This document shows positions 9,658 to 18,113 of a stretch of DNA of 60,000 bases, one piece after another; the first letter of the stretch is position 1; every line of letters begins with the position of its first letter. The position numbers and the translations under genes are program-made. The notes beneath the pieces were generated by a model. It did no database searches, was not told the DNA's origin, and saw nothing but the letters and a program-made list of their open reading frames with translations. The stretch is taken from contig NC_087074.1 of NCBI RefSeq assembly GCF_026151205.1, forward strand, positions 18,739,240 through 18,799,239. The letters are read 5' to 3'. The stretch is from Bolinopsis microptera (Eukaryota; Ctenophora; Tentaculata; Lobata; Bolinopsidae).

Positions 9658-11305
9658 AGTGAAACAAATTTTAGTGAAACAAATTTAAAATTTTATCCTT
9701 TATTTTACAATCATAATATAATAATATTTATAAGCCTCCGTTTTGAAAGTTTTAAATTTTAATATATTCACATTTCTATTTAAAATCCAATTTAATGTAT
9801 AAGTCAATAACTGGCCGCCAAAGCCGCGCATTTTTGAAAACAGGATTAAATTGTTTATGATTATACGACAAATAGAAATAAATTTAAACTATCCGTGGTT
9901 TTTTTAAAATGAATTATAATCTTACCTAAATCCAAAGCCAGCTTTGTAAAATTTACTATTAGATCATAATATATCGTCAATTCTCAATATTTACAATGCA
10001 ACATTTGTATTCGGCGGCGCGCGCTTCGCGCGCGAAAAGTGGCATGCAACGTCTGTCAACATTTCATTAATCTACATACAAGCGTACTCCAGCCCCTGCA
10101 CGCATCCGTTCCTATGCGGCGCGGCTCAAGCCGCGCACGCACGTATTATTTTATACTTTTTGCTTTCTAATAAATATCGTGTCAATGTGTACGTCTAAAT
10201 GTTCATGTTTTGTGTAAACCGAATCCAATTGAGATTAGTGACAAGGATAAGGACCCAAGTGCCTGTACGGCTTTTTCGGACCCCTGTGGACCACTACTCT
10301 TGAAATCGCTCTACAACTATTGAACATTTATAACTGTTATATAATATATAACGTCATTTGACAATTATTATCATTAATCTACAATCTAACTGTCTTGCTG
10401 AGGGGGAGGAGTAAACGCTTCACAAACTAAAATATAATACTTACAACATACAAAATTTAAAACCATCAACACTGTTATAGTTAATATCAAGGGCCGATTT
10501 TGTATACCGCTATTTCGTTGTAATATCTAGTATATCTTTACATTTTAATACAATAATGAAATACAATAGGATACATGTTTCGAGAAAGAAAGGTTGATCC
10601 GATTATTAACAAAAGTAAACAAAAGTCCATCAGGAACTCCACGGAGTCGAAAAAGGTACACGGCTGCTGTCTGGTGCTGCTAGGCATTTATTGATCAAGA
10701 TGTTTTATTGTATTGGTTTTTGATGATTCTATTGTTCGTGACTAATCAAGTTCTAAGTGGGGGGTATAAAGTGCTGCTTAAGATACTTCGTCATCTCATG
10801 TCCAGTATAATGAATAAGATAGTAAACAATACAGTTTCAGTAGTTGACCCATACAGTTAAGTCCGTCATAACTCACAATTGTTTAATCGTCTGTCAATTG
10901 TCAAAGTCGTTGTGTGTTTAGTCGCTGAGTTAGCAGTAATATAAGTTGTTACGCGCGCGCGCGTTTAATCCCGTCGACGTGAGATGTGACAATGAAAACG
11001 CTACAGAATTATTGTTTTCGCGCGTTACGTAGAATTTACTAGTGTGTAATACTGGTTAATACTGGGTGTACACTGAGTGTAAGTCGCTAAGTTTCATATA
11101 CGAGCCGTTGAATATTTCAAATTTTGAGTGTATCGTGAGCATGTTTTGCAGTGCAATTGTTCGGTACTAGTGTGTTTGTGTGTATATATATATATATCAT
11201 CTGTGGAGTATGGTGTGTGGACTGTGGTAAATAATGTGTTTAGTTGGAGTGCAGTGGTTGCATGTATGAGGAAATATAAGTGGTTATTTTAGTAAATCAC
11301 ATTAA
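9658..11305 (-). other. 1.65-kb 3' UTR of the CR1-like LINE
   Basis: Non-coding but conserved among all copies here (9658-11305, 17653-18113 with 18760-19249 and 21817-22461, and 18114-18759). It carries a GC-rich hairpin, GCGCGGC-TCAA-GCCGCGC at about 10119-10136, in an otherwise AT-rich setting, a CG run near 10951-10964, and a conserved AATAAA before the terminal 15-bp repeats. The hairpin recurs in every copy that covers this part, so it may be the 3' structure recognised by the reverse transcriptase. Confidence 0.7.
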
Positions 11306-14300
11306 TCAAAACTTGAGCTCATTTGTGGCAAAATTAAGCTCACACCAATCAAGTGTATCATGCTTGAATTGCAATTCTTGTAAAGCAATTTTCAATGTAT
11401 TCTTAAACCCGTTTGTCGGAGTATTAAAACTTATCTTACTTGATGTTTGTCGACAGCTGTTCCACATGTAGGATGATTGGTAGATGAACTGTGAGGATGG
11501 TTGTGATGTGATGAAATAATTCTCTCGTCGTGGTGACCTGCTGAATGATGAGTACAGTGATAATGGTTCCTCTAACTTATTGATTTTGAATAGTTCTAAG
11601 AGACAAGTGTACTTATACAGGTTGTGAACAGTTAACAATTTCTGATTCTTAAACAAGGGCTTTGAGTGTTCTTTTTTGTAAAAGTCCACACCTAGTTTTT
11701 GCTCACCAAATGGTCGTGTCCGGGCACAAGTTCTAAATTTTTCTAAGTAAGCTTCTTTATCCCCAAATAGAATTCTTATACACTTTTTCTGTGTTTTAAA
11801 GAGAGGTTCGAGTCGGTTGTTGCTAATACCACCCCATACAGATATTCCAAATCCCAAATGTGATTCGAATAAAGTATGATATAAATCCTTATAATACTGT
11901 TTAGGGACAATGTGCCGTATTCTGCATAACTTACCTACTTCACATTTAAGTTTTGAGTTAAGTGACCGTGTGTGAGTTTTCCAATTAAGTTGATCATCGA
12001 TAATGACACCTAGAAATTTAGCTTCTCGGACTTTTTTAATGACAACATTGTTCAAAGTTAATATGTTCTCGTCATTTTCTACTTCCTCTTTGGCACGTGA
12101 CGGTCTAAAGTGGATAAAACAGCATTTCTTAATGTTAATATGTAATAAGTTTAGTTTCATATACTTATAAACAGATGCTAAAACTTCATTTCCCTTTTCG
12201 TACAGTCTTCTGACACATGTTTCTTCAATAAATATGTTAGTGTCATCGGCAAATAGTATAAACGTTCCTAAAATTGATGAGTTTCGGATGTCATTTATAT
12301 AGATGATAAACAGCAAGGGACCTAAACAGGACCCTTGGGGCACTCCGTAGACAACGGGCAGTTTCTCAGAGTCTTCACCTAATACTGAGACATACTGGTA
12401 TCTATTCGACAGGTAACTTGCTATAAGGTTGTTTGCATTTCCACGGATCCCATAATTTTCTAACTTATGCAGTAACTTTTCATGTGAGATTGTATCAAAA
12501 GCTTTGCTAAGATCAATAAATATTCCAAGTACGTGTTGTTTTTTCTTGAGACGTGATTCTATGTGGTTAACTGAGTAATTTAAAGCATAACTAGTCGAAT
12601 GATTTTTACGGAATCCGTACTGGTTTTCATACAAGGAATTCTGTGAATGAAAGAAGCTATATAATCTGTTGAATATAATTTTTTCAAATATTTTACCAAA
12701 TACTGCAAGTGTCGACACAGGTCTATAATTTTCAAGGAGTTCCTGGTTATCTTTCTTGTAAATTGGACTAATCCTTCCAATCTTAAGGTCATCTGGGAAT
12801 ATGCCATCTTTCATACATTCATTGTACAGTACAGTAAGTAGAGGAGTGACTATTTTTGAAGACTGTTTTACAACATGAATTGGTATATCACTTGCCTTAC
12901 CGTTCTTAAGTTCAGATATGATTTTGCTAACCTCGTCTGTTGTGCAGTCATGCATGTAAATGCTGGAGGTGTTTGAGAGCGGTAAATAGTCATAGAAACT
13001 AGGTAGACTGTTTATGTTCATTTGACCAAGTTCATTGTAAGCAGTATTTAGGTCAGAGGCCAATGATACGAAATACTTATTGAATTCGTTTGCTATGATC
13101 CTCCTGTTTGTTATCTTAACGTTGTCTATGGTGAACAGCGGCTTTATTTCACGCCGCCGTTTTCCTCTTATACTATTTATTAGTTCCCAGGTCTTTTTAC
13201 TATTCCCGCTATTTTCTGCAAATTTACCAGAGAAGTAATCTGTTTTCACAGTTTGACGTGTTTTCTTTAGGACTTTTCTGTATTCTTTGTAGATAAGGTA
13301 GCGACTACGTTTTAGTGAGCATTCGGGGCACTGGCAAATCCCGCCCTTGTTATCAGTTTCACCGAGTTTACATTTTCTATTTCTTATCTCAACCCAATTT
13401 TCGTACAGTTTATGCTGATTATTAATTGAGCAAATGAGACCGGGAGTTATCCAAGGGTTAACCTTAACAGTTCTCTTAGAGGTTTTCGGGGTTTCTAGTT
13501 TAAACGATTTTTCGATGCAGTTTTTGTAAGTGTCATGGAATTCAGTAAAGTTATGGATTATTTTAGTTTTAAGCTCATCTTCAAGATCCACTAGGAAGCC
13601 GTTAACATTTGATTGACAGAAATCGTAATACTGTTTAATAGGAGTTTTTCCAGAGTTGACTTCAACATTCCAGTTAAATGTGTTAAAAATAGGCGAGTGG
13701 TGAGTTATTCGTTCTTTTAGGGTGCCTGAAGTAATAACATTCTCAATGTCGTTGGTAATTATGTTGTCTATGCAAGATGCTTTACAGCCTGGTTTTTCGT
13801 GAGTAGCAATAGATATTAACGGACAAAATCCTTTACTGAACAATATTTCTTCATATTTTTGTACATTTTTGTTATCTTTATCATGAAGATCGATATTAAA
13901 GTCTCCAGCTAGATAACTGAACTTCGGCATGTGATCAAGAAGGTTAGAAAGTTCAACTAGAGCTTGGGAAATACAGCCACTTGGTGGACGATACAAAACA
14001 CCTACATTAACAGGTTGATCTTCGTTACTTAATGATAAGACAAGTATTTCTAAATGTTCTGTGACTTGTGATATATTTTCAATTACTGTAGCATTTAATC
14101 TATCGTCAACATAAAGGGCTACTCCAGTGCCCTTTTGTTTGTTGGGTGCTGTGTCCTGATAGTAACTATTATAACCGTCGAGCTGAAATAGATTGCTTAA
14201 TTCTTTCCCAGTGTTGGTTTCAGCTAGGGCTATTACGGAGAATTTTGTTTTGTACCTACAGGTTTCAATGGCAAGGTTGTCAAAATTTGATTTATTTCCA

Positions 14301-14707
14301 TCAATATTTTGAAAGAGAATAGATGATTGTTTCTTTACTTGGTTGCAGAGAATATTGGTAAGGTCAGATGCAGTGTATGAGTTACAATTATTTAAAGTAT
14401 TCGAGATTTTGGTTGTGTATTCGTCTAGGTTGTTGTCGTCGTCGTCATTGTCAGTGAGTAGTTTAAATGGGTTATATTTAACCTTGTCTAAATGGATACA
14501 ACGAGTACAGTAAAACTCATTAGATTGGCTATTTGTATTGGATTTGCGATAGCATTTATGGTGCATTATGCAGTCACAGTGGAAACATTCAACTATTGTT
14601 TGGCCGATGACTATGTTCTTAGAACAGACAAGACATACCTCCTTAATGAGGGGAGTCATGTGGTTGGTAGCCATCCACGTGACCCTGACTAGCAGCAGCA
14701 GGAACAA
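11306..14707 (-). CDS. CR1 LINE ORF2: zinc finger, AP endonuclease, reverse transcriptase
   Basis: ORF2 nicks target DNA and reverse-transcribes the LINE RNA. The frame is 1133 residues. It opens with a second PHD-like finger (C25, C28, C41, C44, H49, C52, C67, C70). The AP-type endonuclease follows (~128-345) with AET (E163), GDFN (268-271), SCIDN (D314) and HHSP (336-339). Reverse transcriptase spans ~600-880 with FIDLSKAFD (D732), VPQGSCLGP and FADD (819-822). A thumb and C-terminal domain complete it, with no stop or frameshift. The frame overlaps the end of ORF1 by 65 bp. The likely start is one of the Met codons at residues 12 or 17, the latter only a few codons before the ORF1 stop, which fits translation by termination and reinitiation. 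Confidence 0.93.
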   Translation of the reverse strand: MFLLLLVRVTWMATNHMTPLIKEVCLVCSKNIVIGQTIVECFHCDCIMHHKCYRKSNTNSQSNEFYCTRCIHLDKVKYNPFKLLTDNDDDDNNLDEYTTKISNTLNNCNSYTASDLTNILCNQVKKQSSILFQNIDGNKSNFDNLAIETCRYKTKFSVIALAETNTGKELSNLFQLDGYNSYYQDTAPNKQKGTGVALYVDDRLNATVIENISQVTEHLEILVLSLSNEDQPVNVGVLYRPPSGCISQALVELSNLLDHMPKFSYLAGDFNIDLHDKDNKNVQKYEEILFSKGFCPLISIATHEKPGCKASCIDNIITNDIENVITSGTLKERITHHSPIFNTFNWNVEVNSGKTPIKQYYDFCQSNVNGFLVDLEDELKTKIIHNFTEFHDTYKNCIEKSFKLETPKTSKRTVKVNPWITPGLICSINNQHKLYENWVEIRNRKCKLGETDNKGGICQCPECSLKRSRYLIYKEYRKVLKKTRQTVKTDYFSGKFAENSGNSKKTWELINSIRGKRRREIKPLFTIDNVKITNRRIIANEFNKYFVSLASDLNTAYNELGQMNINSLPSFYDYLPLSNTSSIYMHDCTTDEVSKIISELKNGKASDIPIHVVKQSSKIVTPLLTVLYNECMKDGIFPDDLKIGRISPIYKKDNQELLENYRPVSTLAVFGKIFEKIIFNRLYSFFHSQNSLYENQYGFRKNHSTSYALNYSVNHIESRLKKKQHVLGIFIDLSKAFDTISHEKLLHKLENYGIRGNANNLIASYLSNRYQYVSVLGEDSEKLPVVYGVPQGSCLGPLLFIIYINDIRNSSILGTFILFADDTNIFIEETCVRRLYEKGNEVLASVYKYMKLNLLHINIKKCCFIHFRPSRAKEEVENDENILTLNNVVIKKVREAKFLGVIIDDQLNWKTHTRSLNSKLKCEVGKLCRIRHIVPKQYYKDLYHTLFESHLGFGISVWGGISNNRLEPLFKTQKKCIRILFGDKEAYLEKFRTCARTRPFGEQKLGVDFYKKEHSKPLFKNQKLLTVHNLYKYTCLLELFKINKLEEPLSLYSSFSRSPRRENYFITSQPSSQFIYQSSYMWNSCRQTSSKISFNTPTNGFKNTLKIALQELQFKHDTLDWCELNFATNELKF

Positions 14708-16814
14708 CAGGACCAGTTTCTCTTCCAGCAGTCACATCCCTGAAGGATCTACTGTCTACCCTTGTGGACCTCCTCTTCCTTTTGTCGATACCACCGTTAA
14801 TCCTGAGAAGAACAGTGTTACGAATAAATTGACCTAACTTTGCTAGTCCCCTCCAGTTGAGGTGAAGGAAGTCTGGTTTTTGGTGTTTGTTGAGGTCGCG
14901 AGAGAGAGAGCGGTCAAGTAGACCATCTCTATCACAGAACTCATCAAATCCATCCACATAACTGACACCAAAATTGGACGGGAGCAGCCTACGTCGAATC
15001 AAACTGTTAAAATATATAAGTTTTCTATTTAAGTCAGCACGTTTAGAGGGAATTGCTGGACAAACAAAAACATGTACACACGGATTGACAGATTGTATCT
15101 GTGCAATCTTTGAAGCTAATGCATTATAAATAATTTCAATGTCATGTTGGTTCTTGACCTCTTCGTTTTTGAGGTCGTTGACCCCGCACAATATTACACA
15201 GTTTCTATACCCCAACGTGACATAAGGATCTATACTATCAATGACCGGAGCGAAGATGCGTTTGCCAGGTAACCACTTGCCGAATGACTTAGCAGGATCA
15301 GTACCAAATTTCAAGCCTCCAGTGTTTGAATCCCCGATGATGCATGTGGCATTTCTGTTCAACGAATTCACGGATCTAAGTGTGATGCTGTAACGTAGCC
15401 CTTCTATATCACCTGCATCAATACGATGGTTGAACAGTTCTTGGCTACGACGTGTCATAACATACAAGGAACGTGGGTCACATTGCTGCTTGTGCTTATC
15501 AGTGCCTGTGTGAGAGTCAGAGAAAGAAACCTGACATGCAGAACCAAGCGAAACAGTGAATATTTGAGACTCTGGATGGATGGTTGGCTCATCATCAGAG
15601 TGTCTAGGTAGCTTGCTGTCTGTTCCTTCAAACCGATTTACTAAGCAGCTGTTGATCTGAGGTAGATCACCCTGGCAGAACTCATTATTGATTTTGTCAA
15701 TGAGTTCCTTGAGAACCGATGGTATTGCCTGTGGCTTTTCAGATGACTTGGAACCTGGGTAATCATACCTTTCCCCATATGTTAGGCAGGAGCGGTCGTT
15801 CTCAACTTTGAAGTGACCACTGTCCTTAACAAAAAGTTCTCCTAAATCATTTGCTGTTTGCTGATCAATGTAGTCATTTTTGAACATTTCCACAGGTTTC
15901 TGCTCATGATTGGGTAGCTGCACAGGGACTGTAGGCACTGGAGACCGAAGGTGCTGAGTAGGAGGTCCTGGTTGCAATGAGGTGGGAGGAATGCAGGGGC
16001 CAGGATTATGCAATGGCTGTAATGAGTCTAAGGATTGTTTCAAATCACTTATGCCTGCAGCTGCAGTGTGCTCATTGGCACAGAGTACAGTGAGCTGTTC
16101 AGAGATGTCCTTCAGAAACTGCTCAGATGAAGCTGAGGGTGAGGAGGGTTCTGTAGATGGTCTGGATGACAGAAGTTTGAGGTCCTTCTGAAGTTCGGCA
16201 ATATTAGTTTTGATTGATTCTAATGATTTATCATGAAGCTTTATTTCATTATTTAGCCCATTAAGGGAGTTCTCTTTAAGAAGCAGGTGTTGAAGGTGAA
16301 CGTCGAACTGGGAGAGAGTGTCAAGGTTCTTAGAGAACTGTTCGAAGTCAAATTTTTCAAGAGCTGAGCCTGCTGAGCTTGCTGATGCCACGAGTGCACT
16401 GACAGTTTCAAGATTCTTAACAGCTGTAGATGCTTCAAAATCTGAGTTGGCCTGTTGCAAAGCCCTTGTGTTCCTGCAGCTGTAACAAAATTCAACTCTC
16501 TGTTTTTTCAGTGTTGATACTGGTGCCACGAAGCAGTATGGGCACAGCCATTCTACCATGGAGTTGATAGCTGACCTCGCTATACCTTTCATAGACAAGC
16601 AGTCCACATGCCACTCTTGATGACACTTAGAACAGTCAATGAGGTAAACTTTACCGTTAAAAGAGCGTTGACATGGACATTTCTTCTTGTCCCTATGTTT
16701 CCTGTTTTCCTGATCTTCATTGTCCACTGTAGAGTCGACTAAAATGTTGCGAGACAAGCTATTAGATGTTTTAGGAGTACCTGAGTTCTTCCTAGTATTT
16801 GATGCCATTCTCAA
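14643..16814 (-). CDS. CR1 LINE ORF1: PHD finger, coiled coil, AlkB-like oxygenase, SGNH esterase
   Basis: The 723-residue product has four parts. (1) A PHD finger at ~44-96 with Cys4-His-Cys3 ligands C46, C48, C61, C64, H69, C72, C91, C94. (2) A predicted coiled coil at ~150-265, then a Pro-rich linker. (3) A region at ~305-482 with the AlkB-type 2-oxoglutarate/Fe(II) oxygenase signature: NSCLVNRF at 388-395, H405-x-D407, distal H463 and RYSITLR at 474-480, whose two arginines fit the 2OG- and substrate-binding positions. (4) An SGNH/GDSL esterase at ~490-672 with GDS (S496), GVND (544-547) and D648-x-x-H651. PHD and esterase domains are known from CR1 ORF1 proteins; the oxygenase assignment is mine from motif order. 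ORF1 proteins bind LINE RNA; the enzymatic roles are uncertain. MRMASN offers two possible start codons. Confidence 0.9.
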   Translation of the reverse strand: MRMASNTRKNSGTPKTSNSLSRNILVDSTVDNEDQENRKHRDKKKCPCQRSFNGKVYLIDCSKCHQEWHVDCLSMKGIARSAINSMVEWLCPYCFVAPVSTLKKQRVEFCYSCRNTRALQQANSDFEASTAVKNLETVSALVASASSAGSALEKFDFEQFSKNLDTLSQFDVHLQHLLLKENSLNGLNNEIKLHDKSLESIKTNIAELQKDLKLLSSRPSTEPSSPSASSEQFLKDISEQLTVLCANEHTAAAGISDLKQSLDSLQPLHNPGPCIPPTSLQPGPPTQHLRSPVPTVPVQLPNHEQKPVEMFKNDYIDQQTANDLGELFVKDSGHFKVENDRSCLTYGERYDYPGSKSSEKPQAIPSVLKELIDKINNEFCQGDLPQINSCLVNRFEGTDSKLPRHSDDEPTIHPESQIFTVSLGSACQVSFSDSHTGTDKHKQQCDPRSLYVMTRRSQELFNHRIDAGDIEGLRYSITLRSVNSLNRNATCIIGDSNTGGLKFGTDPAKSFGKWLPGKRIFAPVIDSIDPYVTLGYRNCVILCGVNDLKNEEVKNQHDIEIIYNALASKIAQIQSVNPCVHVFVCPAIPSKRADLNRKLIYFNSLIRRRLLPSNFGVSYVDGFDEFCDRDGLLDRSLSRDLNKHQKPDFLHLNWRGLAKLGQFIRNTVLLRINGGIDKRKRRSTRVDSRSFRDVTAGRETGPVVPAAASQGHVDGYQPHDSPH

Positions 16815-17046
16815 ATCGAATATAAGTAATACTGACCAAATAGATCCGACTTGGGGTCGGCTCCCGTTAAGTGTTTTGTTTTGGAGGGGATTAGGACTTC
16901 AGAGTTGATGACCCTAGTAAAGTGTAGATGACCCTAATAGAGTGTAGATGACCCTTAGCTTAGTACGCCCCTTCGGGGGAGTTGTAACATACCATTCCTC
17001 AAATTATTTGTTATATAGTAGTGTTGAAAGTATTAAAATTGTCCCT
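16815..17046 (-). other. 5' UTR / internal promoter region of the CR1-like LINE
   Basis: This is the only non-coding sequence between the ORF1 start and the element's 5' junction. It holds three close direct repeats of GATGACCCT-type sequence (near 16906-16957) and a GC-rich stretch (GCCCCTTCGGGGG near 16967-16979). LINEs usually carry their promoter here, but no specific promoter motif is recognisable. Confidence 0.5.
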
Positions 17047-17652
17047 ATTGTCCCTAAACAGTATTATAAGGATTTATACCATACTTTATTCGAATCACAT
17101 TTGGGATTTGGAATATCTGTATGGGGTGGTATTAGCAACAACCGACTCGAACCTCTCTTTAAAACACAGAAAAAGTGTATAAGAATTCTATTTGGGGATA
17201 AAGAAGCTTACTTAGAAAAATTTAGAACTTGTGCCCGGACACGACCATTTGGTGAGCAAAGACTAGGTGTGGACTTTTACAAAAAAGAACACTCTAAGCC
17301 CTTGTTTAAGAATCAGAAATTGTTAACTGTTCACAACCTGTATAAGTACACTTGTCTCTTAGAACTATTCAAAATTAATAAGTTAGAGGAACCATTATCA
17401 CTGTACTCATCATTTAACAGGTCACCACGACGAGAGGATTATTTCATCACATCACAACCATCCTCACAATTCATCTACCAATCATCCTACATGTGGAACA
17501 GCTGTCGACAAACATCAAGTAAGATAAGTTTTAATACTCCGACAAACGGGTTTAAGAATACATTGAAAATTGCTTTACAAGAATTGCAATTCAAGCATGA
17601 TACACTTGATTGGTGTGAGCTTAATTTTGCCACGAATAAGCTCAAGTTTTGA
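17047..17652 (+). pseudogene. CR1 reverse transcriptase C-terminus of the split host copy
   Basis: Starting at VPKQYYKDLY the frame matches the last ~200 residues of the intact ORF2, with only a few changes, and ends at the equivalent stop. It is the direct continuation of the fragment ending at 9657. The open frame starts earlier (16948), but that part is 5' UTR of the inserted minus-strand copy read backwards. Confidence 0.9.
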
Positions 17653-18113
17653 TTAATGTGAGTTACTAAAATAACCACTTATCTTTCCTCATACATGCAA
17701 CCACTGCACTCCAACTAAACACATTATTTACCACAGTCCACACACCATACTCCACAGATGATATATTTATATATATACACACAAACACACTAGTACCGAA
17801 CAATTGCACTGTAAAACATGCTCACGATACACTCAAAATTAGAAATATTCGGCTCGTATATGAAACTTAGCGACTTACACTCAGTGTACACCCAGTGTTA
17901 ACCAGTATTACACACTAGTAAATTCTACGTAACGCGCGAAAACAATAATTCTGTAGCGTTTTCATTGTCTCATCTCACGTCGACGGGATTAAACGCGCGC
18001 GCGCGTAACAACTTATCTTACTGCTAACTCAGCGACTAAACACACAACGACTTTGACAATTGACAGATGATTAAACAATTGTGAGTTATGACGGACTTAA
18101 CTGTATGGGTCAA

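Follow-up and report, generated by a model that had tools for sequence, protein, structure and literature searches.

The window, by which we mean the whole 60,000-nucleotide stretch of Bolinopsis microptera DNA analysed here, contains on its minus strand a LINE with two overlapping open reading frames. ORF1 (14643..16814, minus strand), whose product in LINEs usually packages the element's RNA, encodes 723 amino acids in a frame opened by TTG, with ATG not appearing until codon 3 (16808). ORF2 (11306..14707, minus strand; 1133 amino acids) has a zinc-finger-like start, an endonuclease and a reverse transcriptase (RT), and its first 65 bases are shared, in a different frame, with the end of ORF1. 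The ORF2 protein matches the Pfam family RVT_1 at E=2e-37; its matches to Exo_endo_phos (3e-4) and Prok-RING (2e-3) fail to reach the cut-offs. Endonuclease and RT are thus both present as in the CR1 clade, the endonuclease by a match below cut-off. Downstream lies a 3' UTR (10842..11305, minus strand), whose end was set by eye where the match to a second copy stops, and upstream lies a probable 5' UTR (16815..16985, minus strand). The element is a LINE, of the CR1/L2 kind as judged from its layout.

ORF1 has three domains, all coordinates being on the minus strand. A PHD-type zinc finger at residues 46-94 (16533..16679; PF00628, E=1e-3, below cut-off) precedes a linker, delimited from the sequence, at residues 100-304 (15903..16517). 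An AlkB-type 2-oxoglutarate (2OG)-Fe(II) oxygenase domain occupies residues 305-484 (15363..15902), as identified by Pfam family PF13532, a profile match to ALKBH2 and a structural model, and is followed by an SGNH esterase domain at residues 485-690 (14745..15362; GDSL family PF13472, E=5e-6, below cut-off) that includes S496, N546, D648 and H651. Within the AlkB domain, H405-x-D407 (15594..15602) and H463 (15426..15428) are the predicted iron ligands, H463 being the third, and R474-YSITL-R480 (15375..15395) forms the AlkB RxxxxxR motif. A sequence-only reading of this DNA had proposed the order PHD, AlkB-like oxygenase, SGNH esterase, and our analysis bears it out, with the metal, 2OG and esterase positions kept in diverged relatives. 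Its numbering of all these catalytic residues was also right, and the NSCLVNRF block that it named lies at residues 388-395.

Residues 339-480 of ORF1 match PF13532 at E=5e-15 (56.7 bits, where the cut-off is 31.2), far enough over the cut-off that chance is excluded as the source of the AlkB match. When searched against the PDB, the lone ORF1 sequence reached ALKBH6 and ALKBH2 at merely 0.04-0.06; a profile of 13 AlkB domains from its relatives recovered ALKBH2 at 2.3e-16, ALKBH3 at 2.4e-13, ALKBH8 at 7e-12 and E. coli AlkB at 9e-5. The double-stranded beta-helix anticipated by the earlier reading was found in an alignment-based model of the domain (pLDDT 85.8, pTM 0.84), which superposes on ALKBH2 and ALKBH3 over 172-173 residues (rmsd 2.1 over 172 residues of ALKBH2, 3bty). 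Foldseek placed ALKBH2 and ALKBH3 entries at the top with this model (1.6e-10 and 1.7e-10), and VIA-align gave Z scores of 21.5 for ALKBH2 (3bty), 21.3 for ALKBH3, 19.2 for AlkB and 18.9 for FTO. The alignment behind the model included 72 additional AlkB rows, 3 from viruses and 69 from bacteria, and the model therefore partly takes the fold for granted; the 13-domain profile search is independent of that alignment. The grouping of the H, D, H and R residues in space was judged through alignments and not from coordinates, and a single-sequence model of the AlkB and esterase domains together was of no use (pLDDT 34). From these data, we conclude that ORF1 contains a genuine AlkB-family 2OG-Fe(II) oxygenase domain.

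Among all scanned frames, GDSL passes the Pfam cut-off only in two Helitron-type loci, L012 and L021. An esterase profile built from 13 LINE ORF1s matched 12 PDB sequences at E<=0.01, the best being a DUF459 protein at 2e-7; among them was the solved LINE esterase of ZfL2-1 ORF1p (4c1b), at 4.5e-4. ZfL2-1 ORF1p (PDB 4c1a/4c1b, PMC3905857) resembles the window ORF1 in having a C-terminal SGNH esterase that conserves the residues S, N, D and H.

We assessed conservation of the active sites in an alignment of 17 ORF1s, in which identity to the window protein ranges from 26 to 84% for the remaining 16. Residues H405, D407, H463, R474 and R480 are unchanged in all 17, as are the esterase residues S496, N546, D648 and H651, so that the earlier claim of intact metal, 2OG and esterase positions holds in these diverged relatives too. 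The HxD/H iron triad and both arginines are likewise unchanged in 23/23 aligned AlkB domains, comprising 20 rows borne by transposable elements (TEs) and 3 non-TE rows of the same genome, host ALKBH2 among them; identity of the TE rows to the window AlkB domain drops to 21% with the active site still invariant. The second arginine of RxxxxxR is described as characteristic of AlkB homologues (PMC544882). Two residues past the first arginine of this motif, a serine is present in all 20 TE-borne rows and an asparagine in all 3 non-TE rows, a difference which suggests that the specificity or 2OG handling of the TE-borne AlkB domains may differ from that of ALKBH2/3.

The AlkB domain is under purifying selection. 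Using NG86, we tried 17 pairs for the AlkB part, of which 15 were measurable, the distant pairs window/L032 and L022/L027 being saturated. The dN/dS was 0.04-0.25 in 13 of the 15: window/L030 (0.127), L034/L041 (0.155), L037/L040 (0.069), L039/L042 (0.16), L045/L046 (0.204), L026/L029 (0.192) and L018/L023 (0.123), Helitron pairs (0.171, 0.166, 0.159 and 0.251) and pairs of the L019 type (0.038 and 0.049). The remaining two are very close pairs, window/L005 (0.263) and window/L002 (0.817), with few changes behind either value. Between the window and L030, dS was 0.06 in the PHD part and 1.26 in the AlkB part, and by this comparison the two ORF1s look like mosaics.

Searching the 182-residue AlkB part against its own genome (264.65 Mb) yielded 150 scored matches out of 779 candidates, which cluster at about 96-100, 74, 54-43 and 41-38% identity and often lie in open frames of 640-750 amino acids; the AlkB-bearing ORF1 is thus a widespread family. 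A genome search with PF13532 gave 151 matches from 588 candidates, 150 of them scored, again with recurring frame sizes. From this search we fetched 20 loci and scanned 16 with Pfam, leaving out L013, L017, L028 and L029. The scan showed AlkB with a weak PHD match in L022, L024 and L027 (with GDSL also matched in L024), AlkB followed by GDSL without PHD in L018, L023, L025 and L026, and AlkB in a longer frame without a scored esterase in L019 and L020. At E 0.01, Pfam found no PHD in six scanned AlkB-bearing frames (L018, L019, L023, L025, L026 and L045). Pfam missed the esterase of L022 and L027, but the 17-ORF1 alignment shows the S, N, D and H residues of both; profile matches of these two esterases arise by construction. 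In the AlkB-first type (L019, L020 and L028), an esterase-like stretch is discernible by eye only, unscored by the esterase profile and, in L019 and L020, by Pfam. Three loci (L014, L015 and L016) have AlkB alone in shorter frames and were taken as host genes; L014 is a separate ALKBH2-like gene, matching ALKBH2 at 4e-60. An ionotropic glutamate receptor frame that we also examined is of animal-like character.

A further arrangement, GDSL then AlkB, was found in L012 and L021, and in L010 and L011 it is accompanied downstream by DUF6570 and Helitron_like_N. The piece downstream in L010 contains a PIF1 helicase (3e-22), which identifies this locus as a Helitron. Read from the overlapping pieces L010 and L144, its frame (listed at 3388 amino acids) encodes SGNH, AlkB, Rep (Helitron_like_N) and PIF1 in succession, and it is by this content of Rep and PIF1 that we know L010 to be a Helitron. 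Behind six AlkB-bearing ORF1s, an RT was found at 1e-27 or better in five; the sixth stretch (L139, behind L018) lacks a long ORF2 frame in that orientation, and L018 may for this reason be a broken copy. The five RTs and that of the window are 24-56% identical to each other in pairwise comparison. AlkB is carried by several LINE ORF1 layouts and a Helitron, so the window ORF1 is no isolated fusion.

The association of AlkB with its neighbours is also seen in counts across the genome, for which we chose by eye 74 of 150 esterase rows (frames of at least 640 amino acids) and 59 of 130 RT rows (frames of at least 1100). A listed AlkB lies directly upstream in 72/74 esterase matches and 2.4-3.7 kb upstream in 42/59 RT matches; the input held 125 of the 150 AlkB rows, and omission of the other 25, mostly low-scoring, can only lower the number linked. 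In the other 17 RT rows the region 1-4.5 kb upstream is without a listed AlkB, likely through 5' truncation. As for the two esterase rows without a listed AlkB, L146 retains an end piece of the domain and L147 has none.

A 41-row tree separates all 27 TE rows from the 14 rows of host, viral and bacterial origin by a branch with support 94/92, a level at which the program does not count the branch as shown. The sampled non-TE AlkBs (L014, L015 and L016) are not near the TE rows. In the free tree, the LINE and Helitron rows, minus the L019 type, group together with support 99/96. When the 19 LINE rows were set by themselves and the Helitron rows opposite, the resulting tree scored 2.4 log-likelihood units above the free tree (p-AU 0.62); a rerun of this split, defined by its other side, was likewise not rejected (p-AU 0.24). 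As a lone-LINE split scores above the free tree, the 99/96 grouping of LINEs with Helitrons is not to be trusted, and the tree does not choose among a Helitron AlkB derived from a LINE, a LINE AlkB derived from a Helitron, and separate captures. Searches of viral_contigs found no viral relatives with LINE alignment A3 or host ALKBH2 as query; alignment A4 gave four loci, and A5 the same four contigs.

We propose, with a probability of about 0.6, that the ORF1 AlkB domain is a catalytically competent nucleic-acid dealkylase, and that it possibly also serves as the single-strand binding module of ORF1p. By this proposal, the AlkB domain would let ORF1p bind single-stranded nucleic acid of the element and would strip small alkyl groups (of the m1A, m3C or m6A type) off the bases. 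Dealkylation could keep the template readable for the RT, erase marks that the host uses to recognise or store element RNA, or both. Helitrons move as DNA, and AlkB in such an element points to a substrate that RNA- and DNA-based elements share, for instance alkylated single strands or an adenine mark of the host; the same AlkB-esterase pair in other element families of this genome suggests that the enzyme, acting on nucleic acid, serves the elements' own spread. With regard to such marks, seven exon matches to the m6A-writer family MT-A70 occur in the host genome, three of which contain a stop. We also considered 5mC as the AlkB target; relevant here are a genome with one 424-amino-acid DNA-methylase frame plus a fragment, and a CpG observed/expected ratio of 0.73 in the window. 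In mammals, the m6A eraser ALKBH5 is reported to suppress L1 and METTL3 to help it (PMC7873242), and suppression by an eraser counts against a simple benefit from m6A evasion.

The esterase-type ORF1ps in RepBase are described as lacking an RRM or any other structured domain for RNA binding, and how such proteins join stable RNPs is a question asked in the same source (PMC3905857). AlkB may supply this otherwise absent binding module, which would offer an answer to that question. The same observation favours a reading in which the domain is retained merely for nucleic-acid binding or structure, with catalysis incidental or lost. A mere binding role would not need the iron and 2OG residues, which are invariant in every aligned ORF1 and AlkB domain, with TE rows as little as 21% identical to the window domain, and we regard this reading as improbable. 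We give similarly little credence to a role on chromatin, in which, at the site of insertion, the PHD finger would read histone tails and AlkB would edit DNA adenine marks or a protein. In its favour, PHD and AlkB sit together in a single protein, ALKBH2 and ALKBH3 as the nearest solved relatives were solved with DNA, and LINE ORF1 PHD fingers are suggested as possible guides of integration (PMC4120745); against it stand the six AlkB-bearing frames without a Pfam PHD match. TEs occasionally acquire domains, in what is described as a cryptic flow of mostly rejected acquisitions (PMC9289625), and a captured host ALKBH gene could in principle be a passenger of no benefit. This is very improbable given purifying selection across wide divergence and the distance in the tree between TE rows and the sampled host AlkBs; on the low dN/dS between subfamilies and the invariant active sites, we rejected a passenger or degenerate domain.

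Beyond the dealkylase function itself, we tentatively entertain a broader scenario, which we hold as possible rather than probable. In one animal lineage, LINEs and Helitrons would share AlkB and SGNH as a transposon module, made up of a nucleic-acid dealkylase and a lipid esterase, that was either exchanged between them or retained in both. The module would counter the same host mark or damage in RNA- and DNA-based transposition and would let esterase-type ORF1ps hold nucleic acid. That a DNA transposon of this genome also has both domains hints at a selective pressure common to both classes.

PHD and esterase domains in the ORF1 of CR1-like LINEs were reportedly described by Kapitonov and Jurka in 2003, in a title that shares these two domains with the window ORF1 and does not name AlkB. 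Unlike the esterase ORF1ps of RepBase, including the ZfL2-1 type, as presented in the available text of PMC3905857, the window ORF1 has an AlkB domain before its esterase. None of the ORF1 domains tabulated in the accessible part of an analysis of 448 Jockey-superfamily elements is AlkB (PMC4120745), and searches of the open PMC literature, judged by titles and abstract beginnings, turned up no recognisable AlkB in a LINE or Helitron. If the proposed function is true, this would be the first LINE-encoded nucleic-acid demethylase recognisable in that literature, and with this element one can test directly whether transposons remove chemical marks or damage from their own nucleic acid.

AlkB domains are already known from other mobile genomes, namely orchid Ty3/gypsy elements (PMC9289625) and plant positive-strand RNA viruses (PMC544882). 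The Phalaenopsis enzyme is likewise an AlkB-type demethylase of a retroelement, reported active on m6A RNA in vitro, but it is named ALKBH5-like and lies in a separate ORF of a plant LTR element (PMC9289625), whereas the window domain is fused into a LINE ORF1 and by profile is nearest to ALKBH2/3. The viral domains likewise keep HxD, H and RxxxxxR in a mobile RNA genome; unlike the window ORF1, they lie in a polyprotein context, for which the excerpted text mentions neither esterase nor PHD (PMC544882). The fish Helitron gene Texim likewise encodes a Helitron-associated SGNH hydrolase related to the CR1 esterase (PMC4021074). Whereas Texim is a separate, intron-bearing gene, described in the accessible portion of that source without mention of AlkB, SGNH and AlkB are here encoded together within the Helitron frame.

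Comparison of the ORF1 of the window with that of L030, a locus in the genome of the same animal (G000) that also carries a LINE ORF1 with an AlkB-type domain, showed that the PHD part is nearly identical between the two (dS 0.06), whereas the AlkB part is strongly diverged (dS 1.26). Given this disparity between the two parts, ORF1 segments seem to have been exchanged between LINE subfamilies. In an alignment of 20 TE-borne and 3 non-TE AlkB domains from G000 (A2), ORF1 residue 476, which is located in the RxNxTxR stretch, is serine in all 20 TE-borne rows and asparagine in all 3 non-TE rows. A serine at this position is possibly a mark of TE-borne AlkB domains.

ORF1 and ORF2 of the window LINE share 65 bases (14643-14707), read in a different frame by each, and the two open frames likewise overlap at L022, another G000 locus with an AlkB-bearing ORF1. 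In the window an ATG of ORF2 is found shortly before the ORF1 stop codon, a position that resembles a stop-restart translation arrangement. At its start, ORF2 contains a second zinc-finger-like stretch (14537-14644; Pfam matches below the cut-off), followed by the endonuclease; by eye, the ORF2s of L022 and L140, a G000 stretch with a LINE ORF2, also have Cys/His-rich starts. A second, 5'-truncated copy of the same LINE, comprising the ORF2 end and 3' UTR, lies on the plus strand at 17015-18110 (limits set by eye), near the probable 5' end of the full copy; the two are oriented head to head.

SGNH and AlkB domains also occur together in a Helitron of G000 (C10:16874382-16884545; L010 3383-9499 and L144 1-4146, two overlapping pieces), whose frame, listed as 3388 aa, begins with these domains, followed by DUF6570, Rep and PIF1 helicase. 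Among the matches listed for G000, five further AlkB matches lie in frames of 2225-3366 aa, one being L011.

Elsewhere in G000, uninterrupted frames of 400-990 aa hold 22 of the 32 glutamate-receptor ligand domain matches (for example, L007-L009), and on this basis introns seem to be absent from that part of many of the receptor genes.
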